From contig CM068838.1 of the NCBI GenBank assembly GCA_028554795.2, positions 93,792,974 to 93,856,973 of the forward strand: a stretch of DNA of 64,000 nucleotides, in the 5' to 3' direction. The position numbers and the translations under genes are program-made. Under the pieces are notes generated by a model, which was not told the origin of the DNA, ran no database searches, and worked only from the letters and a program-made list of their open reading frames with translations. Source of the stretch: Sinohyriopsis cumingii (Eukaryota; Mollusca; Bivalvia; Unionida; Unionidae). The stretch's first letter is position 1. Each line of letters begins with the position of its first letter. Positions 45,808-63,928 of the stretch are shown here, piece after piece.

Positions 45808-45813
45808 TATTTG
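45808..45813. repeat. Left target-site duplication TATTTG
   Basis: Identical to 63923..63928; 6 bp is the size expected of Polinton integrase. Confidence 0.93.
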
Positions 45814-46224: not shown

Positions 46225-46239
46225 ATGTTAATGTATCCA

Positions 46240-46443: not shown

Positions 46444-46517
46444 AAGCGTAGAAGATTACACATCGGTCCACATCTTGAGGCACCGAGAACAAGTGAATCA
46501 ATGCAGTGAACTGCGTT

Positions 46518-46525
46518 TATTTATA
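46518..46525 (-). promoter_or_regulatory. TATA box of the left-end leftward gene
   Basis: TATAAATA on the minus strand. Transcription would start near 46490, leaving about a 50-nt leader before ATG 46443. Confidence 0.55.
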
Positions 46526-46623
46526 GGTAGAGGAAGGATTGAAACGGATTGAGTTCATTGACCAATCCAAACACGCGTTAAAAAATTCAGTCAGACCGCA
46601 TCCAATCCGAAGAGAACAGTCTG

Positions 46624-46645
46624 TGACGTCACGTGGTCTATATAG
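46624..46645 (+). promoter_or_regulatory. Polymerase promoter: CRE, E-box and TATA
   Basis: TGACGTCA (46624..46631, a full CRE palindrome) overlaps CACGTG (46630..46635) and is followed by TATATAG (46639..46645). The polymerase ATG is at 46693, about 50 bp downstream. The site sits between divergent genes and could serve both. Confidence 0.6.
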
Positions 46646-46959
46646 ATTCGCTAGCGCCTGTGTGCAGTCAATCTATGCGACAGTGATTCAACATGACGGA
46701 AACTCAGAAAACGATCCATTGGGGTGTACCAGCAGTGGAGACCACCCAAGGGAATCCGGACTTACTTTCAGAAGAGGTAAACTGGGATTTTGTGGATTTT
46801 CTTACCTCGCAAGAATTTGTTCCGGAACCTTTGTCACCTTCATTACCGCAATTGGAGAATTTTAGACAGAGACAGAAAGAAGAATTGGAGAAATTTATAC
46901 AACGACAAATGGAAGCGGAACAAGCTTTTCTCCTACAGCAACAGCAGCAAGAAGAAGAG

Positions 46960-47241
46960 GTAAGAAAAAAACAACAAAAAGAAGAAGTAGCAGCAAAGAA
47001 ACAAGAGGGTGAAAATCAAATTGTCACGGTACTGTTGGACATTTTAGCGGAGATAAGAAGTCTGAAACAAATGTATCAGACTTCTTTATTACGACCGAAG
47101 GTAAGAAAAAAACAACAAAAAGAAGAAGTAGCAGCAAAGAAACAAGAGGGTGAAAATCAAATTGTCACGGTACTGTTGGACATTTTAGCGGAGATAAGAA
47201 GTCTGAAACAAATGTATCAGACTTCTTTATTACGACCGAAG
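46960..47241 (+). repeat. Perfect 141-bp in-frame tandem duplication in polB
   Basis: 46960..47100 and 47101..47241 are identical and encode 47 residues each, Lys/Glu-rich followed by an amphipathic helix (ILAEIRSLKQMY). No difference is visible, so the event is recent or maintained by conversion. It lengthens a likely coiled coil. Confidence 0.97.
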
Positions 47242-50200
47242 AGAATACGACCTTCCCGACAATGTCAACCCAAAGAAGACGATCGCTTGAGACTTTCCAT
47301 ACAACACGACGGTTTGAAATCCCCTGTTTGGATCGAGTTTAGCAGACCCGCAGAACTAACTGCTTCCAAAGTCATGGACAAGATTCAGCACGTGCAACAA
47401 TCTAATGACCAGTTTGACATCACCGATGGAAAAGCCACACTGGACATGACCCACGTCTCTCCTCCTCAAGGGACTGGACAACGCAATAAGGTGTTACTGG
47501 TGAACGACCTTCGCAGCACCAAAAAGAGTCTCGTCCAAATTCACAATTCTGAAGACCAGATGTGTTTAGCCCGAGCCATCGTGGTGGGACGAACCTATGC
47601 CAACAAGAACGACACGACAGAATGGAAAAGAGCCTGGAAAACTATTCGACAATCGGACAGAGCCAAACAACGAAACGAAGCAGAACTTCTGTTGCAACAA
47701 GCTGACCTATCCAAAGACACACCCTGCGGCATTCCTGAAATGCAAAAATTGCAAGATGTCCTAGCTCCACGCTACACCTTGAAAGTGCACCCTCAAGAAG
47801 TGCGTAGGCCTCTGTTGTTTCGAGGCCAAGACTTTAAGGACGGAAAATACATTCATGTCTATTATCACGATGACCATTTCGATACCATTACCAGTATCAC
47901 TGCATTCCTAGGATACGGTTATTACTGTGAGAAATGTGACCATGGTTATAATAATCGAGAGCAACACAAACATTGCGGATGGAAATGCTCAGGATGTTTG
48001 GCCTCTCCACCCTGTCTGAGCGAAGGACAAGAAATAGTACATTGTCCTGCTTGTCTGCGCACGTTTGTCAGCCCTGCCTGTTACCAACAACATCTGAAGA
48101 AGCAAGGTTCACAGCAAAAATGTGCTTGTCAACTCCTGATATTGTGCCCTACGTGTGGACAAGGCATACGTACCAATAATGCCAAGACACACGTATGTTC
48201 AGGAAAGAAAAAATGTCACATTTGTCACCACATCGTGGACTTGGAACACCAATGCTACGTGCAAAAATACCAACACCCACCAGAGAAAGAGGACGGTCAC
48301 AAGAAGAAAAGCAATTTCATCTTTTTCGATTTCGAATGCATGCAAGAGACCGGTATTCACATTCCTAATTTCTGCGTGGCTCGTCGAGCGTGCGAGATGT
48401 GCATTCAGGAACCTATCTTCAGTCATTGCCCTCACTGCAGTAAGATTCCCGGAGGGCGTGAAAAAATCTTTCGAGGACCGAACACGTTAGCCGATTTTGC
48501 CCAATGGGTCTTAGACCCCATCGACAAGACGTGGAGCCAAGAGGACATCGAACGTTACGGAGATTGTCATCGTCATGCCACGGTGATGGCTCACAATTTT
48601 TCCGGATATGATGGACAGTTTCTTCTCAGATACTATACGGAACAAGGCACCGAGCGTCCTAAAGTGACTTTGAACGGAGCCAAAATCATTTTCATGGAAG
48701 TGGGACAAGTACAGTTTAAAGATTCGATGAGCTATTTGGCCATGCCTTTGAGCCGAATGCCTAAAACGTTTGGAATGACAGAAATGGCTAAAGGGTACTT
48801 TCCACACTTTTTCAATACGGAAGTCAATCAACACGCCGTTCTACCCCATTTACCTGAGGCTCATTATTACGACCCCGATAACATGCGTACCGAAGAACGA
48901 GAAGCTTTCTACGCTTGGTACCAGGCTCACGCCTCTGACCCTTTCGATTTTCAGGAAGAAATGCTAAAATACTGTCGTTCCGAGGTGGACATTTTACGGC
49001 GATGCTGTGGAAAATTTCGAGAACTGTTCATGGAGCACGGAGGGGTCGATCCTTTGAAAGAAGCTTGCACCATTGCCAAAGCGTGTTCCTTAGTGTATCG
49101 GCAACGGTTCATGCCTGAAAACACCGTGGCTGTCATCAGTCCTCAAATGACCAACTATGTCAAACGTCAATACTCGGTCAAAGCCCTACGCTGGTTACAT
49201 TACTTGTGCGACAAGGAAGACAAATGGATTCAGCATGGCCGCATCGGAGGAGGTGAAAAGACCATCGGAACGCATTCGGTCGATGGCTGCGACTTAGAAA
49301 ACCCCAAGATCGTGTACGAGTTTAACGGTTGCTTATTTCACGGATGTCCCGTCTGTTATCCTGACCGTAGCACTAAAAATCAGTTTTTACAACGAACCAT
49401 GGAAGACTTGTACCAGGACACTTGTCAGCGACGCCTAAAGTTAGAACAGGAAGGATACCAAGTGGTGGAAATGTGGGATCATGAGTACGATCACCGTTTG
49501 AAAACCGATCCCGAGTTTAAATGCCTCGTGGAAAGTTACCAGTTCATGGACCCCCTGAACCCGAGGGATAGTTTGTACGGAGGAAGGACCAATGCCACCT
49601 GTTTGCTGTACCAAGCCGACGAAGAGAAAGGAGAAGAAATCAAATACTTGGACGTGTGTTCGCTGTATCCCTACGTGTGCAAATATTGTCACTTTCCTGC
49701 AGGGCACCCGCAATTGCTGACGGAACACAGCGACCTGAAAAACATTCGACAATACGAAGGCTTGATCAAGTGCAAAGTCTTGCCTCTCACGGACTTGTAC
49801 CATCCCGTCTTACCTCACCATTGCCAAGGCAAACTGATGTTTCCTTTGTGCCGTACTTGTGCCGAAACGTGCAACCAAGATCAACCTTGTGAGCACACCC
49901 AGGAAGAACGGGCTTTGACGGGAACCTGGGTCAGCGTAGAATTGTTCCAAGCTTTGGACATGGGATATCAACTGTTAGAAGTGTACGAAATTTGTCACTT
50001 TCCCAAGACACAACAATATCACAAGGGTGACCCCACTCAGAAAGGCATTTTCGCCGACTACGTGGATGCCTTTTTGAAACTAAAGCAACAAGCCAGCGGC
50101 TATCCTTCCTGGTGTCACACTCCCGAAGACCAAAAGACATTCAAAGAGAAATACTATGAACAAGAAGGCATCTATTTAGACCACATCGAGAAAAACGAAG

Positions 50201-50946
50201 GCAGGCGATCGTTTGCCAAAGTGATGTTAAATTGCTTGTGGGGTAAAATGGTACAACGATCGTGTTTACCCAAGTCACAGTATTTGACAGAACCTTCCCG
50301 CTACTTCCAGATGATTCACGACAAAACCAAATACATGAAACACGTGGACGTCGTTCGTGAGGATTTGATCTTGGTCAATTACGAAGATGATCTGGACTTT
50401 GTACAAGACGACCCTTTTGGAAATGTCATCATTGCGGCTTACGTGACAGCTCATGCTCGCTTAAAATTGTACGAAGCTTTAGAACTGTTAGGGGAACGTG
50501 TCCTGTACTTTGACACGGACAGTTGCATTTACATCCATCACCCGAGTCAACAGCACCCTGACATCGAAGGAGACCGTTTAGGAGCCTGGACAGACGAGCA
50601 TCCCGACGACAAGATTCTAAGTTTCGTCAGTGGTGGTCCTTAAAATTACGGCTACGAATACGGGGACAAACAAGGAGAAGTGCACCCGCAGTGCAAAGTG
50701 AAGGGATTGACTCTGAATTATCGTACCAGTCGTGTGGTGAACTTTGGGGTATTGAAAGAAGCCTTGCAATCTGGAGAGGATGCAAACTTTAAAGTGACCA
50801 CCTACCAACCGAACAAGATTGTACGTTTACCCACTCACCACATCGTCAGTCGACCCTTGGAAAAAGTCTATCAAATCGTGTACCAGAAGCGAGTGCTACT
50901 TCCCAATCATTTCACCTTACCGTATGGACACGTCGCTATTGGTCTG

Positions 50947-50956
50947 TATATAAAAA
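50947..50956 (+). promoter_or_regulatory. TATA box of the BIR gene
   Basis: TATATAAAAA, 56 bp before ATG 51012 and inside the 3' part of the polymerase frame. Confidence 0.6.
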
Positions 50957-51011
50957 GGAACCCTAGGCAAGATCTATAGTTCATTGTGACTACCAAGACC
51001 AAGCGAACAAG

Positions 51012-52328
51012 ATGAATACTTTCAGAGAAACACAACACAAGTTTAGAAAGGCACAATTCAAGTGTGGGGCTTCGGAAGTGGAATGCGATTGTGAGCCTTG
51101 CGATGGGTACGATGCTGTACGTTGTGACCTTAGCGATGCCGTAAATCATCATGGGAACTTTGTTTTCACTACCCCTATCATGGAAAGTGATGCTGTGCGT
51201 GCCAAACCTGAGGGATGCGAAAGCGATGCCGCTCGTCCTGTTGGACACTTTACTGGTTTTCGTTTGAAAGGTGAATGTTCACCTTCACGTCTACCCCCCT
51301 ACGGATGTCATCCAGCCCTGAGCAAACTCCTGTCCATGTCACCCAACCCTCATCGAAACGAACCTGTGAAAGACGAATATTCGTTCCCTGTGCGTTTGTC
51401 GGAATACTGCGACTTTGAAAATCGTCTTCAATCGTTCAAAGGAAAATGGCCTAAGTATCTGGGAGGCCCGACCCCCGAAGAATTAGCCAGAGCCGGATTC
51501 TTCTACTTGGGCGAAGGAGATAAAATCAAGTGCTTCAGTTGTGGTGTGTCACTTCACCACTGGGAACCGCAAGATTCGGCCTACGTAGAACATGCTCGAT
51601 GGTCACCGAATTGTCATTACTTACCCTTAGTGGGACCGAGACATGAAGTAACTTACCATAATCTGTTCATGGATACTTTACACGAGAACATTCGTGCTTT
51701 GCCTGTGGAGTTGAGAGAACGCATTTACCGAGAGCTGGTCAAAATACAAGTCAAACGTAAAGAACAGTTGCATCCGTTACGTCACCAGATCTTTAACCAC
51801 TGGTACCTGAATTTTATAAGAGAACTGATTCGTCAGAAATTGTTTCAGTGGTCAGACCTTGTTCAATACTTCCAGGCCCCCGATGATCCACGTGTTGATC
51901 ATTTTGGTTACTTCGAGATTCACCTAGTACAACACACTGAGGAAGACAAGGTAAAGGATTACCGATATATTTTACGTGGAATCTACTTAGCGGAAGAGGA
52001 AACTTCTAAACAAAGTCTGACGTTTCGGTTACAGTATGCAACATTTAAATTCCCCACTGGAGAACGAAGATCTCTGGCTAGAAAGTACGTGTATTGTTTC
52101 CGAAACAAAGAGACTATAAAAACAGGCTGCCATGCCACGACTTTTATCGCATGTAATCCAACAGATTCCGTGGAAGAACTCGATGACCATATTCAAGCCG
52201 TGGATCATTACCATCGATTATTACAAGAACTGTATCCATTCAATTTGGGTGGACAAGTGGTGTGTGTCTTAGTGACTTGTTTTCTAGGATTTCGTTTACC
52301 AGCCGATTCTCTATGGACTCTTTATTAA
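51012..52328 (+). CDS. BIR-domain (IAP-like) protein carried by the Polinton
   Basis: 438 residues, intact. Residues about 135..205 form a BIR domain: an Arg/Trp-containing start (RLQSFKGKWP), AGFFYLGEGD, then the zinc set C174-x2-C177-x16-H194-x6-C201. No RING or second BIR is visible, unlike most cellular IAPs. The N-terminal 120 residues contain short Asp-Ala-Val-Arg-like repeats and several Cys. The 230-residue C-terminal region is helical and unrecognised. BIR proteins bind caspases or related partners and block apoptosis in cells and in insect viruses; an anti-death role here is inferred. It sits between polymerase and ATPase in the element orientation, with its own TATA box. Probably captured from the host or another virus. 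Confidence 0.88.
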   Translation: MNTFRETQHKFRKAQFKCGASEVECDCEPCDGYDAVRCDLSDAVNHHGNFVFTTPIMESDAVRAKPEGCESDAARPVGHFTGFRLKGECSPSRLPPYGCHPALSKLLSMSPNPHRNEPVKDEYSFPVRLSEYCDFENRLQSFKGKWPKYLGGPTPEELARAGFFYLGEGDKIKCFSCGVSLHHWEPQDSAYVEHARWSPNCHYLPLVGPRHEVTYHNLFMDTLHENIRALPVELRERIYRELVKIQVKRKEQLHPLRHQIFNHWYLNFIRELIRQKLFQWSDLVQYFQAPDDPRVDHFGYFEIHLVQHTEEDKVKDYRYILRGIYLAEEETSKQSLTFRLQYATFKFPTGERRSLARKYVYCFRNKETIKTGCHATTFIACNPTDSVEELDDHIQAVDHYHRLLQELYPFNLGGQVVCVLVTCFLGFRLPADSLWTLY

Positions 52329-52347
52329 CAGTACTTACCACACCCCC

Positions 52348-52852
52348 ATGGCCTTAAATGGTCACGAAAGACTCCTTTTGCTCAAAGCCTTGCGGTTTCA
52401 TCTGGATACTTCTCGACCTTTACGGGAAAAAAAGATTCCTCAACTTTTAGCTACCCAAGACGTGTATGACGATGTGTGTGTAGCTTGTGACTTACACCCC
52501 CATTGGACAGATGTCCGTGCCTGGAAAGAATGGGATTTTGAGGCTTGGACCCAAGAAGTGGTCCAGTATGCACGAGAGTTGTTCAAGGAAAAAAGTTACT
52601 TTTCAACCAGTGTTAGTGACGGTGCCAGAAGAACCCGTCACCCAGGACAGGACTGTCGTGGACAGGCCTGAAAGACCCTTTCGGGAGGACACTTGTGTGA
52701 CCTTACCCCCTATAGAACTGGTCAGAACTTTACCCAAAACATGTTGTACAGACACTTGTTTTTATTCCACGTTGATGGTTATCATGTGCCTTTTATCCTT
52801 GTACTTAAGCCTTTGGCTTTTATGTATTTTTGTCTTTCGTATTCATGTTTAA
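52348..52852 (+). pseudogene. Membrane-protein ORF with one frame change
   Basis: ATG 52348, 20 bp after the BIR stop. The first frame is open to 52671; the next frame, open from before 52500 to 52852, carries the apparent continuation. The change of frame fits the A6 run at 52589..52594. Soluble N-terminal part with several Trp, then a Pro/Thr-rich stretch and a C-terminal hydrophobic helix (STLMVIMCLLSLYLSLWLL). Family unknown. AATAAA at 52860 would serve as its poly(A) signal. The shift could be a mutation, an assembly error or programmed slippage. Confidence 0.55.
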
Positions 52853-52859
52853 AACATTC

Positions 52860-52865
52860 AATAAA
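52860..52865 (+). terminator. AATAAA polyadenylation signal
   Basis: AATAAA directly after the membrane ORF and only 17 bp before the ATPase TATA box. The middle of the element therefore appears to use ordinary polyadenylation. Confidence 0.6.
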
Positions 52866-52881
52866 CGTGTTCTGAAAAAAG

Positions 52882-52889
52882 TATATAAA
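52882..52889 (+). promoter_or_regulatory. TATA box of the packaging ATPase
   Basis: TATATAAA, 47 bp upstream of ATG 52936. Confidence 0.65.
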
Positions 52890-52935
52890 CTCTCGTCTTG
52901 TTTGTTTTCGTGTCACAAGTGACATTCCTGACACT

Positions 52936-53650
52936 ATGGCTACTTCTGCTGTCTGTGCTCCCTCTTCCTCCACTGTCAAAGTCATCGACGAACACTTATA
53001 TCGTGCCAGTTAGGAGGCTTTATATCTTCGCCATCCCTTTGACATGCTCATTGCTGGACCTAGCGGTTCAGGCAAAACCGAATTCGTCAAACGTTTGATC
53101 GAACATAAACATCATTTGATCGATCGACTACCGCAGCGGATCGTGTGGTGTTACAATGAGTGGCAATCGGCGTACAGCCTCTTGCGAGAAAGTCAAGGCG
53201 ATTCCATCGTGTTTGTGGAAAGCATTCCTAAAGAAGACGACGGCATCGTCTCTGACTCCCGTCAAACCCATTTGGTCATTTTCGACGATATGTTAGGAGA
53301 AGACGAAGAAGAAATTAAACTGCGGTTCACGCGCAAAGGGTATCACCGTAATGCCAGTGTCGTTTACATCACCCAAAATTTGTTTCCATCGCACCATCAG
53401 TCTCAATGCGCATTACGTGGTCTTGTTTAAAAGCCCTCGAGATAAATCGCAAGTGCAAGTCTTAGCCAAACAGTTAGGAACGCCTTGGCTGACTCAGGCG
53501 TACGACGATGCCACTAAAACGCCACAAGCCTATTTACTCGTCGATTCGGAACCTACGACCCCCGAGGATTTGCGATTTCGTACCCACTTGTTTCACCACA
53601 GGTGCCAATACGGAAGGCCTGTCCTGTACACGTCTCCGTCCTCGACTTAA
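52936..53650 (+). pseudogene. DNA-packaging ATPase (FtsK/HerA, A32 type), broken
   Basis: Motor predicted to pump the genome into capsids. ATG 52936 opens a frame that meets TAG at 53011 and stays open beyond it. Walker A is GPSGSGKT (about 53059..53082) and Walker B LVIFDD (about 53270..53287), followed by the TQN sensor region. Near 53385..53397 the reading continues in the next frame to 53650 (NAHYVVLFKSPRD onward). Without the two lesions the length, about 235 residues, would be normal for Polinton ATPases. Start context and TATA box are good, so the lesions look recent. Alternative start at 53044 would lack the N-terminal strand. Confidence 0.85.
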
Positions 53651-53717
53651 TTTCACTCCACAAAAAAATCGATAAAAACCTCAGACCCGTTTCGTCTGTC
53701 TCACACACATTTTGAAC

Positions 53718-54317
53718 ATGACGTCCCTTCAGTCGCATCTTCCCGTCAAATTGATTCGTGCCTTGTATGGCATCAGTCGAGAAAAAAATCCACAAATACG
53801 AGCTCGTGTCTTAGAAGCTAGTCTCAAAGAAGTCTTACGATGGTTCACGGTGACGGCACGTCAATTACTCCAAGGAATCATTCAGGTTCCTCATCAAACC
53901 AAACGCTTTTTTGATCGAAACAAAGTCGCTTTGACCCAACTGGCCGATCCCCGCATCGACACTCAAACCAAAAAACAAATCATTTTGAAACCTGGAGGGA
54001 GCGGTACTCTAGGAGGGGTCATCATTCGCTCTCTCTTAAGATGGGATCCTAATGCCCCCAAAGTTATACCCAAGAAAAAAGTCCAACGAAGCTCCAAGAA
54101 GAAGAAAAATACCAGGTCCCCAAGGAGAACTTCTCCAGTGGTGGGACCCTCCTCTTACCAGACACCACCCCGGAAAAAGAAAAGAAGCCCCCAGAAAAAG
54201 AAACAGAGAAAACGTCCCCAGAAAAAGAAAAGCCCACAGAAGAAAACTAGTCGCAAGAGAGGCACTTCGGCCAGGACGCAACTTACACTCGCAAACCACG
54301 ACCTGCCACGGCGGTGA
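53718..54317 (+). CDS. Basic Polinton protein with helical and GG-containing core, copy 1
   Basis: 199 residues from ATG 53718. Residues 1..110: helices followed by KKQIILKPGGSGTLGG and a hydrophobic segment. Residues 115..199: very Lys/Arg/Pro/Ser-rich tail. The core has the same layout as the ORF at 54540..54911: helix, LLxGxI-like turn, KK, then a Gly-rich hydrophobic end, suggesting two related genes. The basic tail resembles virion core or DNA-condensing proteins in composition; function unproven. Confidence 0.6.
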   Translation: MTSLQSHLPVKLIRALYGISREKNPQIRARVLEASLKEVLRWFTVTARQLLQGIIQVPHQTKRFFDRNKVALTQLADPRIDTQTKKQIILKPGGSGTLGGVIIRSLLRWDPNAPKVIPKKKVQRSSKKKKNTRSPRRTSPVVGPSSYQTPPRKKKRSPQKKKQRKRPQKKKSPQKKTSRKRGTSARTQLTLANHDLPRR

Positions 54318-54751
54318 CCGCGTCTCCGGCAGGCTCACGTTCATCCACTTCTCCGTTGGTGACACCAAGCACTGAAGAGTACATGGAGACGTTGAACACA
54401 CCAAGAACATCTCCGTTGATGACCCCAAGAACTTCCCCAGTGGCAGGACCCTCCAATTTAGTGGCAGTAGCTGCTGCTCACAAAGTACCTTCTCCCAAAA
54501 TCAAAGTTCAAGAAAGATCGGGCATGTTACAGAGTTTAACAACCCCAAGGAAAGAGAAGGAAAGGACTGCCTCCTCGTTTAGTCAAACATGGGGACATGT
54601 TATCTGTCCTGTCCAAAGCTTCTCCACCCGTACTGAAAAAGCTCATTCAATCAGCCTCCAAAGAGGTCATCGATACCGTATGCGAATGCTGTTTGAACGT
54701 CTTGAAAGGCACGATCCCTTTGTCCAAACACCAGAAACAATGCTTAGGTAA
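54314..54751 (+). other. Ser/Thr/Pro-rich open frame linking the two basic genes
   Basis: Overlaps the stop of the preceding gene and is open for 145 codons, low in complexity (repeated TPRTSP). It has no ATG near its start. It may be the continuation of the basic tail after a frame change, or the upstream part of the next gene. Not a confident separate gene. Confidence 0.3.
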
Positions 54752-54911
54752 ACATCGTCACGTTCTTCGCCAAATGGTTCAAAAGAAAATTCCCATTCGT
54801 CAAAAGAAGAAGATGTTGTCCAACGTGGAGGAATTTTACCCCTCTTGTTAGGTCCCTTGCTGAAAGGAGTCTTGGGAACCATGTTGGGACGACTGGTGGG
54901 AGCAAGATAAA
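54540..54911 (+). pseudogene. Helical GG-ended Polinton protein, copy 2, frame changed
   Basis: ATG 54597 starts the clear part. The helical core (CECCLNVLKG, KHRHVLRQMVQKK) is typical of a small protein I associate with many Polintons. The frame closes at 54851, but from about 54820 another frame encodes the expected Gly/Leu-rich hydrophobic C terminus (RGGILPLLLGPLL) and stops at 54911. A single frame change near 54815..54825 explains this. Such hydrophobic ends suggest a membrane-active or capsid-associated role; not proven. Confidence 0.55.
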
Positions 54912-54959
54912 AAGGCTCTCGGAAGTCCCAAGATCTCAGTATCGACCCCTGACAACCCC

Positions 54960-55595
54960 ATGGAAGGACGAAATCTAGCTTTAATGCCTTACGAACGATG
55001 GATGGAATACCATCGGTGGCAAGAACAACGCACCCCGCATTTACCTCCCAATCCCCATTTGAGCGAGATGTCCCAGCTACAACACGAATTGCAGTCCTTG
55101 ATTGATCGCCAAGATTTGACCGAAACAGAAAAATCGCAAAAGTAAGGTCAACTCTTGCAACAACTGCAACTCTTTCACCAGAAAGCTTTAGACGAAACAG
55201 CTCTACCCACTATGAAAAATTTTAAGACCTTGATGAAAAGTCCAGCACCATCACCAGTACCAGTACCACCAGTACCAGTGACCAAGACAGAAAAAGGAGA
55301 AGAAGAAGAAGAAGAAGGGTTTCAAACTCCACCACAAAAAGTACTCAAGTTAACAACACCACCTACCTCCAGAATTGGATGGATTAAAAAGATGATGGCC
55401 ACCCCTTCTTCATCACAAGAGAAAAAGAAAGTGAAGACAGAAGTGAAGACAGAAGTGAAACAAGAACCGATATCCCCTGTTCACACATCTTCCTCCTCGA
55501 CACCTATTGCCGGTTGCACACGCAAAGCATTGCAATCCAAGAAAATACCCCAAGAGAAAAAGAATAGCATCCTCCAAGAGTGGGTGTCTTATTAA
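54960..55595 (+). pseudogene. Charged Polinton protein with one in-frame stop, unrecognised
   Basis: ATG 54960 opens 61 codons, then TAA at 55143. The same frame is open again to 55595. First part: Pro/His-rich then a helix (LQHELQSLIDRQDL). Second part: Ser/Pro linkers, poly-Glu, Lys-rich repeats KTEVKTEVK, and GWIKKMM. An ATAAAAAG box at about 54907 is a likely promoter. I know this as a position-conserved Polinton ORF upstream of the integrase but cannot name its role. Confidence 0.5.
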
Positions 55596-55614
55596 CACAC
55601 CAACAAACACAAAA

Positions 55615-56719
55615 ATGGAAAAAGTGTTAGCCAGCATTTACTACGATCCCTCCCATCCTGCAGGTTACGCAGGAGTTCAAAAATTGTATCGTGCTGCCAA
55701 AAGTCGACTGAAAAGCCTCCGTTTACCTCAAGTGCAACGATGGTTACAAGAACAAGCTACCTACACTTTACACAAACCCATTCGACGCAAATTTTCCAGA
55801 AGTCGCACCCGAGTGGAAGGCATCGATCATCAATGGCAAGCCGATTTAGCCGATGTCTCTCATTTGGCCAGCTACAATCGCGGCTACAAATATTTGTTTT
55901 GTGACATCGACGTCTTTCCCAGATTTGCCTGGGTCGTGCCCTTGACTTCCAAATCGAGCAGCGAGTTAGTGCGAGCCCTGCAACAAGTGTTGAAACAAAG
56001 CGGTCGTCACCCTCTTCGATGGCAAACGGACAAAGGCACCGAATTCCTGAACCAAGCTTTCCAAAAAGAATTAAAGAAACGTGACATTCATTTTTTTTGC
56101 CACCGAGAAAACCAAAGCCAGCATCGTGGAACGTTTTCAACTCACTTTGAAAGAACGCATGTGGAAATATTTTACGCATCACCACACTCTGAAGTACATC
56201 GACATCTTACCGCACCTGGTGAAATCGTACAACCAATCTTACCATCGAAGCATCGGACGTGCCCCGCAAGAAGTGACTCCCGACAACGAAGTGCTGGTGT
56301 TTGTGCGCCTGTTTGGTACGTCCCCGACGAGGGCTGTCCCCAAGAAAAGTGGAGAGTTGACCGTAGGAAATTGGGTGCGCATTGGCAAAACCAAACGCAC
56401 TTTCGACAAAGGTTACTTACCTAACTGGACCACCGAATTGTTTCGTGTCGCTGGACGAGTGCATGTCCGTCATCCTACCGTCTATAAATTGGAAGACATG
56501 AACGGAGAAGTGCTCAAAGGAACGTTTTATTTGCCCAAGTTACAACGTGTCACCAAAAAAGAAGACGACATGTACGACATCGAAAGCATTCTCGAACGCA
56601 GAACCCGTAAAGTAGGCAAACGACGTGTCAAAGAAGTCAAAGTACGTTGGAAAGGATATCCACCCAGTTTTGATTCTTGGATCGACGCTTCGCAAGTCAT
56701 CGACTATAAAAAGAAGTGA
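55615..56719 (+). pseudogene. Retroviral-type integrase with chromodomain, one frame change
   Basis: Inserts the element, giving the 6-bp target duplications. ATG 55615. DDE core: D77 (in WQADL), D139 (in TDKGTEF) and the Glu about 34 residues later (in SIVER), so all three are present. The frame shifts at the T8 run (56091..56098), between D139 and the Glu. After it the protein continues to 56719 with a C-terminal barrel-like region (VGNWVRIGK) and a chromodomain at about 56577..56700 (YDIESIL, VRWKGYPP, SWI). The chromodomain could steer insertion to methylated histone H3. The homopolymer position makes an assembly error or slippage as likely as a true mutation. Confidence 0.9.
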
Positions 56720-56724
56720 CCATC

Positions 56725-57141
56725 ATGCCCTTTCACACAGACGCAGCTACGTCGACCACTCCTTCACCCAGTTCTTCTCTGCAAGATTTACAAAAACAAC
56801 CCTTGTGGGTGTGGTGTGGAGAACGTGTGCCTAAAACGCAAATCATCTTTTTCTGCAAAATCTTCGTGGTGTATTGTGTCATCGGTGCAGCCATCGCCAA
56901 TTTCAGTTTGCAACAAGGAGACAAACAACTGTGGACCATTTTATTGAGCAGTTGCATCGGTTACCTGCTTCCCAATCCCTCCCTGAAATTCTCCTCGAAC
57001 GGGAACCACGGGAACCTTGTGTCCAGTGCCAGTGTCAGTCACAACTCCAACAACAACCACAACCAGAACCCCATTTTGGGCGGAGACACGCCTCTGACGT
57101 CCAGTAACCCCTCGGACAGCCACAGAAGTCTGGAATTATGA
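56725..57141 (+). CDS. Two-helix Polinton membrane protein
   Basis: 138 residues from ATG 56725. After a Ser/Thr-rich start come WVWCGERVPKTQ, then two hydrophobic helices (about residues 38..60 and 70..88, the second ending LLSSCIGYLLPNPSLK) and a Ser/Asn-rich tail. This short membrane protein directly before the minor capsid gene is, to my knowledge, usual in animal Polintons; its role is unknown. Its stop overlaps the next start (ATGA at 57138..57141), implying coupled or reinitiated translation. Confidence 0.65.
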   Translation: MPFHTDAATSTTPSPSSSLQDLQKQPLWVWCGERVPKTQIIFFCKIFVVYCVIGAAIANFSLQQGDKQLWTILLSSCIGYLLPNPSLKFSSNGNHGNLVSSASVSHNSNNNHNQNPILGGDTPLTSSNPSDSHRSLEL

Positions 57142-58518
57142 GTCACCAAAGCCAATTTTACTTAACCTTACCCAGTGACAGTTCCATGGAGGTGTTTCCC
57201 CACAACACGTTGTGCTGTTACACGGCCAAATTACCTCAGGCCATCCCATTAGATCACGAAGCCCATTGGGAAGTGGCTTTGGTAGAAATGATTCACCCAA
57301 CACAAATCAAAAACATCACTGAAACTCAGAACACTTTTGACGTCGAAATTCTGGACCCAACAGTGCAGCAAACCATGCTGACGACTTCTCAACATAAATC
57401 ACTTCCCAAGACCCCAATACCCCGCAGCAGCAGTGACAATTCTCCTCCTTTTTACGTTTATCACTTTAAAATTAACTCAGGCCATTATTTTAGTGGTCAA
57501 CATCTGGTGGAGGTCATCGCTGACAAATTCTATGCAGCATTTGACAAAGTTCTGACCGGACTAAAAAAACATTGAGTACCACAAACTGTCTCACCGTCTG
57601 CTCATCAAATTTGAAAGTGAGGAAAAAAAGTATACGTATTAAATTTTGCCCAGAATTGCATGACATTTTGGGTGGAGACCTCAATTTGGGCACGGATAAG
57701 CACTCCAAAAAGATTGAGAAAGCAGAGATTGACAACAACGGGCATTTTGCGAGGTATTTCGTTTCCCGGTAGAACTGAACCAGGGACTGAATTTGATCTT
57801 TGTGTACTCCGATGTGGTGGAGTACAACGTGGTGGGAAACACCTCCTTGCCGTTACTGCGTGTCATTCCTTTCAAAGTAAATTCTGCCACGGTCACTGAT
57901 GAGGAAGGTGGAAACACTTACCACATTCACCGCGAATTTGTACATCCTCATTATTTGCCTGTCAGCAAGTCGTATTTGGACACGGTCAACATTGCTATAA
58001 AAGGAGATTTGGGACAAAATATTCCATTCACCAAAGGAAAAGTCACGGTGAAACTCCATTTTCGAAAACGGTTCTCTCACGATTCGAAAGTCATGTATCC
58101 AGTGTGCCGAGGGGTTGCTCGACAGCGAGGACACGGTTTACGAGATATGCTAAAATCGGCCTTTCGTTCGGTGGCTCCGGTGTTTAAACCGATGGTGACA
58201 CGAGGATTGCACGCCTTGAAAGATGCGACACTGACACAAGGCAAAGAATTTCTCCAAAATGTCATCATCGACAAACAAAACCCCAAAGAAGCCTTCATGA
58301 GGGCAGGCAAAAATGTCTTGCTACAAACGGGTAAAGACCTTTTGGGCCGACGAGACACACCTATAAATGCCCTGCACGCTACCGAGTCAAGCATTCAGCA
58401 AGGACAAGGCAGAAAGAGACGACGAAGAAAACACCCTTTCACCAGACTTCACACGTCTAAAGCTAGAAAGGCCATGAAAAGAAGAACCGTTCGAGACTTA
58501 GACGTTTTCGATTATTGA
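57138..58518 (+). pseudogene. Minor capsid (penton-like) protein with frame changes, plus basic tail domain
   Basis: Single jelly-roll vertex protein of Polinton capsids. First frame 57138..57575 (SQFYLTLPSDSS, EVALVEMIHPTQIKN, GHYFS). Continuations occur in other frames from about 57565, 57620 and 57770, the last being open to 58518 (VYSDVVEYNVVGN, HPHYLPVSKSYLDTV, VTVKLHF). Three frame changes are thus needed near A-rich runs. After the jelly roll the frame runs without a stop into a Lys/Arg-rich module starting at M58093 (MYPVC, GLRDMLKSAFRSVAPVFKP). In other Polintons I would expect this as a separate pVI/pX-like gene; an internal start at 58093 is possible. Confidence 0.75.
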
Positions 58519-58531
58519 GACACAGAAAAAA

Positions 58532-59830
58532 ATGATGCACCGAGAGTCATGCGCTTGTTCCAAGTCGGAACTGGATCTGTTTGCCATGCCACCTACCATG
58601 ATGACGATGCAAGAATCCCAATGGGTGGAATTTCACCCCGTCTCCTCATTGACAGATTCCGCTCCCATCGAGTTTGAAATCAAGGGACAGCCCGAAGATT
58701 ACATCGATCTGAATAGCAGTTACTTGTACTTGAAAGTCAAAGTTCTAGATAAGGATGATGGTGGTGTAGAAGACACTGAGAATATAGCTCCCGTCAACAA
58801 TTTCATGCATTCCTTGTTCAGCTCAGTGGACTTGTACTTGAATAAGAAACTGGTCAGCAGCAGCATGGATACTTACCCTTATCGTGCCTACCTGGAAAAT
58901 CTCTTGACGTACGGAATAGATGCCAAGAATACTCATCTCAATGCCTGTGTGCTATGGGAACCTGACGAAGCGAAGGAGTTTGACAAAATAAATAAAGAAA
59001 ATGACGGCTTTGTGGAAAGACGAAGCAAAATCTTAAATAAGAAGAGTTTAGAACTGATGGATCGTTTGCATTTGGACATTTGGTTGCAAGAGAAATATTT
59101 GCTGAACGAGGTAAATGTTCGCTTGAGACTGAATCGTAGCAGTGCCGCTTTCCATTTGTTGGCTGATAGTTCTGCCAAAAGCAAAATCGAGGAGGCCAAA
59201 CTCTAAGTACGACGCGTGGAAGTGTTACCTAAAGTGGGAAACGACATCAGTCAAACGTTGAGCAGAACGACCGCCAAGTATCCCATCCGACGCGTGGAAG
59301 TGAAAACGTTCACCATTCCCCGTAACCATCATTCCATGATCGACGATCATCTGTTTCAAGGACAGTTACCCAAGCATTTAATCCTTGGTATGGTCTTGAA
59401 TTCAGCCTTCAACGGAGCCTTCGCTGAAAATCCTTTCTACTTTCAACACTTCGACGTGAAGAAAATCGAAGTCAGTCGCGATGGCAAGACCTTGTGTACC
59501 CGTCCTTTCGAACCTGACTTTGGTGACACAAAGATTAATTACATGAGATCGTACTTGTCCTTGTACGAAGCCACCGGACAATTAGGGACCAACACCAGTC
59601 ACGGCATTACGTACGAGGATTACGCAGGAGGCTATGCTTTGTGGGCTTTCGATTTCACTCTAGACCAAGGCAGCGACGAGGGACATTTCCACCCTATAAA
59701 ATCTGGCCAGATTCGTGTGGAACTTCAGTTTGCAAAGCCACTGGACGAGACAGTTAACGTCATCCTGTATGCAGAATTCGATAATACGATAGAAATCAAC
59801 AGTTTGAGAGAAGTCATTCTAGACTATTAG
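58532..59830 (+). pseudogene. Major capsid protein (double jelly roll), one in-frame stop
   Basis: Main shell protein. ATG 58532; residues 1..224 are open, TAA at 59204, then the same frame continues to TAG at 59828 (about 432 residues overall, a typical length). Motifs: KSELDLFAMPP start, WVEFHPVSSL, IEFEIKGQPEDYIDL and SVDLYLNKKLVS in the first jelly roll; NPFYFQHFDVKKIE and DFTLDQGSDEGHF in the second. The first part is preceded closely by the minor capsid stop. Apart from the stop no lesion is seen, so the gene looks recently functional. Confidence 0.9.
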
Positions 59831-59835
59831 AAGCT

Positions 59836-60340
59836 ATGGAAGACTGTTATCCGTCTTTACCTAGTGGAGAAACTTTGGAGATGGAATGTGAGGAGACTGT
59901 GGAAAAATAATCTCAAGACAAAGAAGACGAAGTTGTCATGATGAAGTCGAGATGGCCAGAACAAGAAGCGCATTTAGTCTCCTGTTTTGCCAAACACTTG
60001 GTGGAAAAAAATGACGGAATTGATCAAAAAAGAGTGTTATGGATGTCAAAACGATCATCCCAGTCAAATTCAACACGATAAATGCCTGATGTAGAGTCAA
60101 GAAGAAAAATTGGAAGAGTATCTGGACGAAGCTTGGAGTCTCATCTCGGACGAAGTCGTGTTGCATCAGTGGTATAAAGACTTGCGTGAACATTCTTGTC
60201 CACCATTAACCACTCAAGAGCTCCATCGTATCGAAGCTCTCCTGAATCAGAGTGAGGAAACGAAACGAAGAAACGATTATTTGTCAGACATTTTCAAGCA
60301 AAATGTCAGGATCGAATTCATGACTTATTATTACCTGTGA
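59836..60340 (+). pseudogene. Broken Cys-rich Polinton ORF
   Basis: ATG 59836 is 5 bp after the capsid stop and meets TAA at 59908. Later stretches in other frames encode a CYGCQNDHPSQ segment (about 60030..60075) and a helical end (LDEAWSLISDEVVLHQWYKDL) up to TGA at 60340. At least three stops or frame changes. Cys/His spacing suggests a small zinc-binding protein; I recognise the pattern from animal Polintons but know no function. Confidence 0.55.
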
Positions 60341-60360
60341 AGAAGAAAACACACAAATCA

Positions 60361-60921
60361 ATGGATACTTGGGAACTTTATTACCTTTTGAACCACAGTT
60401 CGTATACGGCTTCTTGGAATCCTGTCGTCTGTGCTAAAGATGAACTCCCTCATAGCAAACCTCAAGACCATCTAGCTTATGTCATCAACACAGACAACAG
60501 TCATCTCCCAGGAACCCACTGGGTAGCCGTCTACTTTCCTCAAGAGGGATGTGTGGAATATTTCGATTCGTACGGATTGCCCCCTTTGGAAGACGATATC
60601 ATTGACTTTATGAGAAGAAATGCTCAGACCACCCGATTCAATAATGTGAAATTACAAGGCACAGATTCCTTAGTGTGTGGACAGTACTGTGTGTATTTTC
60701 TGCATCATCGCAGCCTGGGCTATTCCTTAGAACATTTAGTGACTCATTCTGATCCTCGTTCTTCTTCAAGAAGCGATGTGAAAGTAGATCGATGGTTTTG
60801 TGACCATTATGCTTATCTTTTGTCTCAAGCTAGGAAACGTAGTGTCCATCAATGGCCTAATGACTTCCAACAGTGGAAATCACAATTTCATTCACAACGT
60901 TGTCAACCCTGTTTAAAGTAG
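60361..60921 (+). CDS. Adenain-type maturation cysteine protease
   Basis: 186 residues, intact. Ulp1/adenovirus protease (C5/C48) fold predicted to cleave capsid precursors. Catalytic H53 (GTHWVAV), D69 (YFDSYG), Q99 (LQG) and C106 (VCGQYC) occur in the expected order and spacing. I chose ATG 60361; the frame opens 24 bp earlier without an ATG. It ends at TAG 60919 and is followed by 240 bp of AT-rich non-coding DNA. Confidence 0.9.
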   Translation: MDTWELYYLLNHSSYTASWNPVVCAKDELPHSKPQDHLAYVINTDNSHLPGTHWVAVYFPQEGCVEYFDSYGLPPLEDDIIDFMRRNAQTTRFNNVKLQGTDSLVCGQYCVYFLHHRSLGYSLEHLVTHSDPRSSSRSDVKVDRWFCDHYAYLLSQARKRSVHQWPNDFQQWKSQFHSQRCQPCLK

Positions 60922-61164
60922 AGTGTGAATTGAAAAAAAATGTTTGATGTTATATTGTTGGATTATTGTTATATTGTTGGATTATTGTTAAAAATGTTAG
61001 AGTTGTTGGTTAGTGTTAAGTGATTTTGAATTAAAAAAATGTTGTGTTTTCAAAAAAAAAATGCCTTTGTCTTTTGTTTGGCTATAGGAATGCTGATTCA
61101 TGCTTTTTGACTTCTTACTATCCCTCTCATGACACTCATTGAACGTTTCGGCTCAAAAACCGTA
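60922..61164. other. AT-rich spacer with short direct repeats
   Basis: Contains two copies of TTATATTGTTGGATTATTG (60952..60989) and an ATTAAA-type poly(A) signal candidate (61030). Marks the border between the structural gene block and the right-arm gene array. Confidence 0.5.
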
Positions 61165-61194
61165 GAGGGATGTTTTCCTTCACGTCCACGCTTT
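61165..61194 (+). promoter_or_regulatory. Right-arm promoter motif, gene 1
   Basis: AGGGATGTTTTCCTTCACG followed by TCCACGCTTT, 64 bp before ATG 61258. The motif recurs before genes 2 and 3. Confidence 0.7.
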
Positions 61195-61257
61195 GACTTT
61201 AAGAAGCGGGGAAGTTTCCAGTCTAACCATCCATTGTCGACTCATCCTCCTACGAAG

Positions 61258-61461
61258 ATGTGCTCCAAACTAGCTAAGCTAAACGAAGCCTACGTGAATT
61301 TGCATAGGGTCAGACACAGTCTGATACCAAAGCCAGAAGAGATAGAGAATGTGAGAATGTTAAAAGTCAATGAAGACCTGATAGAAGAGCTCTTCAGAGT
61401 AGAAGTGAACAGGGAGAAAGAAGAATGGACAGAGAAGTACAGACTTCAGAGACAGCAGCAA

Positions 61462-61492
<31 letters not shown>

Positions 61493-61617
61493 CTGAACCT
61501 GACAGAGGCTTTGTCGATTGTCGTATCGATACCAAAGAGTTCTTCTTCTCTTTCCGAAGAAGCACACCTATCGTCAGAAAGTCTATCCTCAGAGGACGTC
61601 GCATTCTTAGAAACTAA
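61258..61617 (+). CDS. Right-arm small gene 1: coiled-coil, poly-Gln protein
   Basis: 119 residues, ATG 61258 (an upstream in-frame ATG at 61129 would precede the promoter motif and is unlikely). Starts with an amphipathic helix (LAKLNEAYVNLHRVRHSL), then a charged helix ending EEWTEKYRLQR, a run of about 13 Gln, and an Arg-rich C terminus. A histone-like hairpin lies 27 nt after the stop. The decayed Polinton at 15.6 kb holds a homologue, showing conservation between lineages. Function unknown; an oligomerising regulatory or nucleic-acid-binding protein would fit the composition. Confidence 0.65.
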
Positions 61618-61643
61618 AATATTGCCATAGCAAACAAAAAAAC

Positions 61644-61659
61644 AGCCCTTTGCAGGGCT
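61644..61659 (+). terminator. Histone-like stem-loop after gene 1
   Basis: AGCCCTTTGCAGGGCT: perfect 6-bp stem, 4-nt loop TTGC. A-rich left flank, ACCCC right flank, then TCTAGAAAAGAAATAAC, a purine-rich element. Confidence 0.72.
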
Positions 61660-61799
61660 ACCCCAAAATCTAGAAAAGAAATAACAATCGATTTGCCAAT
61701 GTGTGTAGGTAGAGTAGTGTGAATATAAACACTAACTCTTTTTTATAGTGTGAGTGTATGTGTTTGTGTATAGGATTGTGTGTTTGTAAGTGTTCACGT

Positions 61800-61910
61800 A
61801 CGTTGGTCTGGATAGTAGATTAAGATCATGCTTTTGTTTTTGCTGTTTAACGTGTGGGGAGAGTAGATTTGGGGTTTGATTGCTTTACGTATGTGGATAG
61901 TATATTGAAG
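61800..61910 (+). repeat. GTGTGGATAGTA-type repeats upstream of gene 2
   Basis: Two or three diverged units with GTCTGGATAGTAGATTAAG and GTATGGGATAG-like phrases. The same family as at 17490..17795 and 62600..62760. Confidence 0.5.
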
Positions 61911-61978
61911 TGATTAATGAAAATTATTAAATTAGTAATGGGCAGTATAAAATAAGTGAGTGAGTGTTTCTTTTAGGT

Positions 61979-62063
61979 CCGCGCGTTGTTTGGTCATGAT
62001 CTAGGTAAGATCAATTTTGTTTTAGGGGGATGTTTTCCATCACGTCCGCGCTTTCAGTATAAA
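61979..62063 (+). promoter_or_regulatory. Promoter of gene 2: doubled motif and TATA box
   Basis: A partial upstream copy (GTCCGCGCGTTGTTTGGTCA, 61979) and a full copy at 62025..62054 (GGGGGATGTTTTCCATCACG then TCCGCGCTTT), followed by TATAAA at 62058..62063. ATG is 44 bp further on. Confidence 0.72.
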
Positions 62064-62106
62064 TTGAAACTCAGTCTAGCTACCCTGTTCATTCGTTAAG
62101 AAGACA

Positions 62107-62475
62107 ATGAATACCAGAAGAAGCAAACTTCTTGAACTCCAGATACATCTGGAATATGTCAGGCGCCTGTTAAATGAACTGGCCGCGGAGGCCATAGTAG
62201 ATGAGGAAAGAATAAAGAAGGAAGAGGACGAGAGAAGACAGAGGGAAGAGGAGGAAAAGAAAATAGGAGAGAGGATGGCTTACAAGATACCAGAGACAGA
62301 GGATTGGGGTGCTGAAGCCAATCATCCTCCCTCTGCGCTTTCAAGAAAAAAAAGTAAAAGGAGACTGGGGAAGAAGATGTGTGTGTGGTGCCAGGCCTGG
62401 AAGGTGCTATCATTAACCAGGTGTCACTGGAGTTCAAAAACAAACAGCCCTTTTCAGGGCTACCCAATACTCTAG
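62107..62475 (+). CDS. Right-arm small gene 2: charged coiled-coil protein
   Basis: 122 residues in the reading frame from ATG 62107. Helix KLLELQIHLEYVRRLLNELA, then Glu/Lys/Arg-rich coiled coil (about residues 33..60), then a basic stretch SRKKSKRRLGKK. The frame as read passes through the hairpin at 62446 and stops at 62475, which is atypical. Another frame stops at 62414..62416, 30 nt before the hairpin, so one frame change after about codon 95 is likely. The remnant at 16.8 kb matches the N-terminal helix. Confidence 0.58.
   Translation: MNTRRSKLLELQIHLEYVRRLLNELAAEAIVDEERIKKEEDERRQREEEEKKIGERMAYKIPETEDWGAEANHPPSALSRKKSKRRLGKKMCVWCQAWKVLSLTRCHWSSKTNSPFQGYPIL
62446..62461 (+). terminator. 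Histone-like stem-loop after gene 2
   Basis: AGCCCTTTTCAGGGCT: perfect 6-bp stem, loop TTTC, left flank AACAAAC, right flank ACCCA, purine-rich CTCTAGAAAAGAAATAAC about 10 nt further on. The closest of the four to the animal histone consensus on both flanks. Confidence 0.78.
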
Positions 62476-62599
62476 AAAAGAAATAACAATCGATTTGCCA
62501 GTGTGTGTATGTAGAGTAGTGTGAACATAAACACTGACTCTTTTCCATAGTGTGAGTGTATAAGTTAATGTATATGATTGTGTGTTAATAAGCGCTAGC

Positions 62600-62765
62600 A
62601 TAGGTTAGTGTGAATAGTAGATTAGGGTTTCATTTTAATGCTTTGCGTGTGTGGATAGAAGATTAGGGGTTTGAATAGGATTTAATTTTGATGCTTGGTT
62701 TGTGTGAATGTTAGATTTTGGTTAGTTTATTGCTGCTTCACGTATGTGGATAGTAGATCATATGA
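62600..62765 (+). repeat. GTGTGGATAG-type repeats upstream of gene 3
   Basis: Four diverged units (GTGTGAATAGTAGATTAGGG, GTGTGTGGATAGAAGATTAG, GTGTGAATGTTAGATTTTGG, CGTATGTGGATAGTAGATCA) preceding the promoter. Confidence 0.6.
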
Positions 62766-62777
62766 AATTAGAAAAGT

Positions 62778-62883
62778 AGGGGATGTTTTCCTTCACGTCC
62801 GCGCTTTGTTTGGTCATGATCTAGGTAATATCAATTTTATGTCTTAGGGGATGTTTTCCATCACGTCCGCGCTTTCACTATAA
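62778..62883 (+). promoter_or_regulatory. Promoter of gene 3: two full motif copies and TATA-like box
   Basis: Copies at 62778..62807 and 62846..62875, each GGGGATGTTTTCC(T/A)TCACG followed by TCCGCGCTTT. Between them is TTTGGTCATGATCTAGGTAA, as upstream of gene 2. ACTATAAGA at 62877..62885 is a TATA-like box 50 bp before the ATG. Confidence 0.75.
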
Positions 62884-62935
62884 GAACCCACAGTATTCGT
62901 CGTTCAAACCATTCTACAAAGAATAAAAGAAGAAG

Positions 62936-63299
62936 ATGGCTTCGAACCAGCTTGATAAAATGAAAACATTGCAAGACGTCATGGACAATTTGGGAATGAT
63001 GGAGCAAATGTTAGTGAGGTTAAAGGAGGATCACTATTCTTATAGCCCACATCGAGTGAAGATGGAGATTATACAACTTAAGAAAAGTAAAGGAAATGAT
63101 AAGTGCTGTGATGAAAGAAATAAAGGAGGAGAAAGAGGATGAAGAGGAAAGGATAAGGATAAGAGCATGGAATGAAAAAGTTGAAAAAGAAGAAGAAAAT
63201 GAGAAGAGGAAGAAAGAAGAGGAGGAGAAGAAGAAAGAAAAGAAGAGAAAGAGTGTAGGAGAGAAAATAAGAAGTTGGTGGAGAAATAGAAGAAATTAG
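62936..63299 (+). CDS. Right-arm small gene 3: coiled-coil protein with one frame change
   Basis: ATG 62936. Helical start (MKTLQDVMDNLGMMEQMLVR) then, in this frame, a stop at 63140..63142. From about 63083 a second frame, open to TAG 63297, encodes the continuing Glu/Lys-rich coiled coil and a basic, Trp-containing end (KIRSWWRNRRN). The change of frame lies at an A4 run (63083..63086). The hairpin follows the second stop by 15 nt, which supports that stop as the natural end. A homologue remnant is at 17.9..18.3 kb. Confidence 0.6.
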
Positions 63300-63314
63300 A
63301 AGAAGAAACCCAAA

Positions 63315-63330
63315 GGCCCTTTTCAGGGCC
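63315..63330 (+). terminator. Histone-like stem-loop after gene 3, at the inner edge of the right TIR
   Basis: GGCCCTTTTCAGGGCC: perfect 6-bp stem, loop TTTC, left flank AAACCCAAA, right flank ACTCA, then TCTCGAAAAGAGATTG. The terminal inverted repeat begins exactly at the left flank. Confidence 0.78.
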
Positions 63331-63465
63331 ACTCATAGGTCTCGAAAAGAGATTGACTTTCCATTGCCTACCCCTTTTTGTATTTTTAGAAAAAAAATCC
63401 TATGTGAAATTTCCCTTGAGGCTATACAGTCCCACCCTGTTTAAATTCCTTTGACGCTATACAGT

Positions 63466-63674
63466 ACGGATCACTGCCATCTCACCTCTGTCTGCGGCGG
63501 TTCGAGTCTAAGATTCAGCCAATGTGGGCATGTGAGAAAGCTTGCCAGTAGCTTCTGGTGGGTCGGTGGTTCTTTCCGGGGTTTTCCGGGTTCTTCCTCC
63601 ACCATTAATACTGGCCGCCATGTATAGCCTATTGTGCTGAAAAATGGCGTTAAACCCCACAACAACAACAACAA
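63466..63674 (+). mobile_element. SINE inserted in the right TIR
   Basis: 209 bp flanked by perfect 11-bp direct repeats CGCTATACAGT (63455..63465 and 63675..63685). Contains a B-box-like GGTTCGAGTCT, the conserved TTCCTCCACCATTAATACTGG and CCGCCATGTATAGCC blocks, GGCGTTAAACCCC and an (AAC)n tail. The 5' head with the A box is truncated. The left TIR lacks it, so insertion followed Polinton integration. Confidence 0.92.
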
Positions 63675-63922
63675 CGCTATACAGTCCCATATTCCCATGT
63701 TCAATTCCCCTTGTCGCTCAACAGTCCCAAAATCTATTTCCCATTTTAATTTCCCTTGAGGCTACACAGTCCCACGATTTTTCGTCCATGTTAAATTTCC
63801 CTTGAGGCTAAACAGTCCCAGGGTGGTTAATGTTAAATTTCCATTGAGGCTAAACAGTCCCGGGGGGGGGGGGGTCTGTAATGCTAATTCCCATGGAGGC
63901 TGAATCGTCCCCCTTAACTACT

Positions 63923-63928
63923 TATTTG
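63923..63928. repeat. Right target-site duplication TATTTG
   Basis: Identical to 45808..45813, immediately outside the right terminus. Confidence 0.93.

Follow-up and report, generated by a model that had tools for sequence, protein, structure and literature searches.

We examined a 64,000-nucleotide (nt) stretch of the genome of the bivalve Sinohyriopsis cumingii (Unionidae; assembly GCA_028554795.2, contig CM068838.1, positions 93,792,974 to 93,856,973 of the forward strand), hereafter the window, which contains a Polinton/Maverick element. Small genes lie at the ends of this element, one at the left end and three in the right arm (R1 to R3), and each is followed by a hairpin and a purine-rich downstream element of the kind found at the ends of replication-dependent histone mRNAs (Table 1). 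These signals stand in the sense orientation and at the histone spacing, are conserved in excess of their surroundings, and match those of the host's own histone array.

Table 1. Features of the Polinton and of its small end genes, in window coordinates
Feature	Position	Strand	Remark
Left hairpin, GACCCT-TTTC-AGGGCC	46200..46215	-	A.C mismatch at second pair, 5/6 pairs; RF00032 27.2 bits, below cut-off
R1 hairpin, AGCCCT-TTGC-AGGGCT	61644..61659	+	RF00032 19.3 bits, below cut-off
R2 hairpin, AGCCCT-TTTC-AGGGCT	62446..62461	+	RF00032 31.5 bits, below cut-off
R3 hairpin, GGCCCT-TTTC-AGGGCC	63315..63330	+	Inside right inverted repeat; RF00032 37.5 bits, above cut-off
Downstream element of left hairpin, GAAAAGA	46180..46186	-	
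Downstream element of R1, GAAAAGA	61673..61679	+	
Downstream element of R2, GAAAAGA	62475..62481	+	
Downstream element of R3, GAAAAGAGA	63344..63352	+	
Left-end gene	46240..46434	-	64 amino acids here, about 76-77 in many other copies; stop 24 nt before left hairpin
Right-arm gene R1	61258..61617	+	In-frame ATG downstream of promoter motif; longer open reading frame call from 61129
Right-arm gene R2	62107..62475	+	Open frame reads through its hairpin in the window copy
Right-arm gene R3	62936..63299	+	Split in two frames, 62936-63142 and 63096-63299, in the window copy
H2B/H1-type motif of R1	61169..61194	+	1 mismatch to 26-mer
H4-type motif upstream of R2	61967..61987	+	21/21 nt equal to host H4 promoter
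H2B/H1-type motif of R2	62029..62054	+	TATA next; 62029-62052 equal to host H2B promoter
Distal H2B/H1-type motif of R3	62782..62807	+	
Proximal H2B/H1-type motif of R3	62850..62875	+	Followed by CTATAAG
Polinton/Maverick element, 18.1 kb	45814..63922		AG..CT termini; 6-bp target-site duplication TATTTG at 45808-45813 and 63923-63928; inverted repeats, polymerase, integrase, chromodomain
Left terminal inverted repeat	45814..46224		Inner edge 9 nt upstream of left hairpin
Right terminal inverted repeat	63306..63922		Interrupted at about 63466-63674 by a SINE-like (short interspersed element) insert that recurs elsewhere in the window
DNA polymerase B frame	46693..50643	+	PF03175, E 9e-38
Older, degenerate second copy of the same family	14129..18333	+	Protease and three right-arm cassettes; SINE-interrupted

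Histone-type 3′ ends of the small genes

A preliminary description, made from the letters of the window, had placed a hairpin behind the left-end gene and behind each of the three right-arm genes, and all four are present, with loops of TTTC or TTGC. The six-base-pair stem that it gave them holds for the three right-arm hairpins, but not for the left one, in which a mismatch leaves five pairs. A purine-rich element had likewise been described behind each hairpin, and GAAAAGA begins 13 nt past the hairpin at 4/4 window sites. Both components of a histone-type 3′ end are thus in place, namely the hairpin with its flanks, as modelled in the Rfam family Histone3 (RF00032, cut-off 34 bits), and the purine-rich element at histone spacing.

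When 20 kb were searched against 4,227 Rfam families, E-values of 7e-8, 1e-5, and 5e-4 were obtained for the R3, R2, and left hairpins, respectively; the R1 hairpin was absent from this list up to E=5 and reached an E-value of 0.0028 in a 121-nt search. A hairpin descriptor run on the window returned three sites, exactly the three right-arm hairpins, while 60 first-order Markov simulations yielded 0.5 hairpins per window, never accompanied by a GAAAAGA within 30 nt. Given these E-values and the lack of any hairpin/GAAAAGA pair in the simulations, a chance origin of the window hairpins with their elements is very unlikely. The left hairpin and the right-most one, each located in a terminal inverted repeat, share one sequence, and the R1 and R2 hairpins both fall within a 187-nt direct repeat; although four genes bear hairpins as first described, within this copy the hairpins thus reduce by duplication to two lineages rather than four independent sites.

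The host's replication-dependent histone genes end in the same way. We fetched three stretches of the host tandem array (114 H4 matches; units of about 8.27 kb with H1, H2A, H2B, H3, and H4) for comparison. The four core histone genes terminate in GGCCCTTTTNAGGGCC and H1 in GGTCCTTTTCAGGACC, so that the stem GGCCCT/AGGGCC is common to the element and 4/5 host histone genes (the core histones), and GAAAAG follows 13-14 nt past the hairpin in all five. The layout of stem, element, and distance is therefore that of the host array, in line with the preliminary description, which had likened it to that of replication-dependent histone mRNAs.

Hairpin-directed formation of transcript ends is a known rule in giant viruses, and the hairpins might be read as a virophage- or mimivirus-like signal that ends transcripts by a non-histone route. 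In keeping with this, Polinton capsid proteins have been compared with those of a virophage (PMC4028283). However, the hairpins are conserved in sequence and not in structure alone, and this sequence is identical to that of the host histone genes, downstream element included; we consider the non-histone route extremely improbable.

Conservation and promoter motifs in related copies

A Histone3 search of the same assembly (2.9 Gb) scored 75 sites from 589,472 first-look candidates, and all 75 exceeded the cut-off; in 14 control genomes, one had a match below the cut-off and none a match above it. The host histone hairpins score 35-39.4 bits, below most of these 75 sites. Sixty-eight of the sites were fetched (2.7-3.0 kb per locus), and each of the 68 belongs to a Polinton copy of this family, with a summed blastn match of 1.2-3.2 kb, while a histone match was found in none of the 68 loci. 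The small open reading frames (ORFs) of the element gave no Pfam match over the cut-off among those submitted and were not found to encode histones.

A strict pattern matched 126 hairpins in the 68 loci. Of these, 110 stand behind an ORF of 50 amino acids or more on the same strand, whose stop lies -30 to 150 nt before the hairpin (median 25 nt). A stop within -30 to 60 nt of the hairpin occurred at 100/126 sites in the sense direction versus 5/126 in the antisense control. The polyadenylation hexamer AATAAA showed no clear excess near the hairpins (20/126, 0.159) over background (292/2344, 0.125). The sense bias bears on the idea that the palindromes function at the DNA level, perhaps as sites for element proteins or in end replication. 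Two window hairpins do lie inside the terminal inverted repeats, as such a role would have it, but the other hairpins are internal, the sites stand just past ORF stops on the sense strand, and an asymmetric 3′ flank and GAAAAGA, equal to or like those of host histone genes, are conserved with them. An action as DNA is accordingly rated as highly unlikely.

Conservation was measured in two samples. In the first, loci were chosen by one hairpin, and its counterpart within that copy was measured as the partner. At left-end partners (n=43), identity was 98.4% for the hairpin, 98.3% for GAAAAGA, 92% for the next 5 nt, and 84% for the gap before GAAAAGA, versus 65-75% for the outer flanks. At right-arm partners (n=22), the corresponding values were 96.9%, 97.4%, 96%, and 83%, with outer flanks 84-87% identical. 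All six pairs were kept in 37/43 left-end and 18/22 right-arm partners; two further partner sites lie outside the conservation profile. The second sample was chosen through the polymerase, independently of the hairpin, and consisted of 14 copies fetched out of at least 34 listed besides the window. A profile search found the hairpin in 14/14 of these copies, six pairs at 22/25 sites, and the downstream element at 23/25, and 13/14 copies had an RF00032 match above the cut-off (20 matches in total). The second left-end gene has a hairpin of its own in 12/14 of them. In many copies, two divergent genes occupy the left end and small genes stand in tandem at the right, with hairpins behind them.

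These data also speak to the proposal that histone-gene fragments were captured once and have since hitch-hiked in repeats without function. The descent of the four window hairpins from two lineages through duplication would fit such a history. Against it, the hairpin and GAAAAGA are better conserved than their flanks at partner sites, and a distant Polinton has the same layout (see below). In addition, end-type and R2-type hairpins differ at the outermost stem pair, where G-C predominates in the former and A-T in the latter, a change on both sides of the pair. We therefore hold passive hitch-hiking to be very improbable.

The element also shares promoter motifs with the host histone genes, a match that was unexpected and is absent from the preliminary description. 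When the element was compared with one histone unit by blastn, the twelve best rows (E up to 1.6e-4) were all 3′ ends or promoter motifs. Positions 62029-62052 and 62850-62873 equal the host H2B promoter over 24/24 nt, and positions 62027-62052 and 62848-62873 equal the host H1 promoter at 25/26 nt. The core ACGTCCGC is presumably similar to the site recognised by HINFP, a histone H4 factor. Allowing up to 3 mismatches, we counted 53 copies of the H2B/H1-type motif in 23 of the 68 loci and none in shuffles; 50/53 have a same-strand hairpin 100-1300 nt downstream, and 38/53 have a TATA within 50 nt. The H4-type motif was counted 18 times in the 68 loci, of which 13 (3 mismatches) are distal H2B-type copies, leaving 5. 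Genome-wide, the exact 24-nt promoter motif occurs in 6,015 copies (histone array included, places counted unsorted), and the reversed pattern in none. The divergent left-end promoter (46440-46692) holds several CCAAT/ATTGG and TATA-like sites and in this respect resembles, by eye, the upstream regions of host H3 and H2A.

The hairpin might instead recruit SLBP for the export, stability, or translation of a non-polyadenylated mRNA, in cells with stored or expressed SLBP such as the germ line or early embryo, with S-phase timing being incidental. The 3′-end sequences support the use of SLBP and the U7 small nuclear ribonucleoprotein (snRNP) as such. However, the right-arm promoters match histone promoters too, which points to transcriptional co-regulation beyond 3′ processing, and we regard incidental S-phase timing as unlikely.

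The element and its relatives

The element carries the hallmarks of a Polinton. A repeat search of the window showed its ends to be inverted repeats of several hundred nt, and these long terminal repeats are bordered by the 6-bp target-site duplication. The polymerase is a protein-primed-type DNA polymerase B (PF03175), and an integrase (rve, PF00665) and a chromodomain (PF00385) are encoded in two overlapping frames. A candidate packaging ATPase (Pox_A32, A32-like) scored just above the cut-off, while a putative capsid piece and protease are 30% identical to ORFs of another Polinton contig and have no Pfam family. In its polymerase, integrase with chromodomain, inverted repeats, and target-site duplication, and with its putative protease and capsid relatives, the element resembles known Polintons/Mavericks, the relatives of adintoviruses; it is unlike them in that its small terminal genes bear histone-type promoter motifs and 3′ ends.

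The N-terminus of the window polymerase frame is continuous with the second left-end gene, whose hairpin is missing in the window copy; the main polymerase match starts at query residue 162-188 in 33/34 other copies listed and at 116 in one. A perfect 141-nt tandem duplication lies in the N-terminal part of this frame (46958-47239, + strand). Among named proteins, those of oysters come nearest to the polymerase, with 47-48% identity. At least 34 further copies have a polymerase identity of 89-95%, many without stops, and given these copies and the 6,015 copies of the promoter motif, the family appears to have undergone a large and perhaps fairly young expansion.

Other features of the window include a protein with a BIR (inhibitor-of-apoptosis) domain encoded within the Polinton (51012-52328, + strand) and the SINE-like repeat of the right inverted repeat (63466-63674), which recurs at 15873-16084, 8238-8450, and 42557-42756 and which we take to resemble the molluscan RUDI SINE. 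In the older copy of the family, remnants of the promoter and the downstream element are still recognisable despite its eroded hairpins.

We further extended the comparison to other sources, in which 20 protein homologues of the second left-end gene were found. One of them, P0131 (64% identical), extends past the usual stop through QWPISGPPTSLEKR, which is close to the QRPFSGPLIGLEKR encoded by the window in that frame across the hairpin and the downstream element. The hairpin signal thus seems to be present in the element of P0131 too, and an F-to-I change in the protein suggests that the top stem pair is altered. A Histone3 match of 35.8 bits was found in L112, a more distant Polinton contig whose polymerase is 37% identical and whose genes are ordered differently. 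Its hairpin lies 28 nt past the stop of an 89-amino-acid C2H2 zinc-finger gene (L112:8042-8311), near one contig end. This zinc-finger gene differs from the small genes of the window, yet it holds the same hairpin-bearing end position. L112 is one of seven Polinton contigs that came binned in bacterial metagenome-assembled genomes, presumably as eukaryotic contamination. Among IMG/VR viral contigs, hairpin patterns and alignments of the polymerase and the left gene gave no useful relative, and a descriptor search of two distant polymerase matches (L001 and L002) gave no histone-like hairpin. The capsid piece had no match among the INPHARED phages.

Probable replication-coupled expression of the small genes

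Replication-dependent histone mRNAs are cleaved behind the hairpin by SLBP, U7 snRNP, and associated factors (PMC6303110). Because both 3′ signals of the element follow the spacing and dialect of the host and the right arm carries histone promoter motifs, the host would be expected to treat the small genes as histone genes. We consider it highly probable, judging from these cis-signals, that the small end genes run on the host S-phase histone programme. Under this programme, the host histone machinery would transcribe the small genes in S phase, SLBP would bind the element hairpin, and U7 snRNP with CPSF73 would cleave behind it. The resulting mRNAs would finish at the hairpin without poly(A) and decay once replication stops. 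In this way, the element would produce its small accessory proteins at a time when the host cell is ready for DNA replication.

Several observations weigh against this reading. Only one of the four window hairpins exceeds the Rfam cut-off, and the read-through of R2 and the split R3 are signs of decay of the window copy. In the older copy, all three corresponding hairpin stems are broken, and the full stem no longer forms. Blastn at E<=10 did not match the divergent left-end promoter to the histone unit. The 68 loci were picked through the hairpin itself, hence the two fairer tests described above, and the partners were located with a profile of the hairpin region (65/68 loci had one), so that badly eroded ones may have been missed. 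No Histone3 match up to E 0.5 was found in the other six Polinton contigs, within which the element ends are not established. Two components of the host machinery were also not identified: an Rfam search for U7 snRNA scored 65 of 801,960 candidates, and PF15247 found SLBP in 0/14 candidates, with both searches being weak and silent in their controls too. A U7 candidate was sought separately with a U7-like pattern; its two matches equalled the number in the reversed control, one of them reached 16.4 bits (E 0.26), and it was not accepted.

Taken with the Histone3 model, which scores the window hairpins and places one of the four above its cut-off, and with the hairpins of related elements, both in 13/14 copies chosen independently of the hairpin and in the distant L112, the results support the preliminary description in reading the layout as histone-type control, to which the shared promoter motifs now add. 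A broader proposal, to which we give an even chance, is that Polintons run a replication-coupled regulon. Small terminal genes would mimic both the promoter and the 3′ end of histone genes and be transcribed and processed together with them, perhaps in histone locus bodies, forming a class of non-histone animal mRNAs with a histone hairpin. The trait would be old in Polintons, since it occurs, on another terminal gene, in a lineage whose polymerase is 37% identical.

No prior report of histone stem-loops or replication-dependent-histone signals in Polintons was found in the open-licence PMC literature. Related themes are known from other systems. Animal DNA viruses that encode histone-like proteins are described (adomavirus and tailtomavirus 'Histoid'), in a text that contains no 'stem-loop' (PMC11071296); they share a histone theme with the element, in which, in contrast, non-histone genes carry histone control signals. 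Histone genes of the bivalve Lucina pectinata have a palindrome near the stop codon and, in some genes, a purine-rich element (PMC6210712), as do the genes of the element, but they are cellular histone genes. The host histone genes share with the element the core-histone stem, GAAAAG at 13-14 nt, and the H2B, H1, and H4 promoter motifs; unlike them, the genes of the element lack a histone match and are dispersed together with a mobile element.

The small genes of the element are a candidate second class of genes with histone-gene signals. In practice, such genes could be mis-assigned in searches for histone stem-loops and overlooked in poly(A)-selected RNA sequencing. For the biology of Polintons, they suggest a way in which a DNA virus-like element, once integrated, can tie the timing of its genes to the replication of its host.

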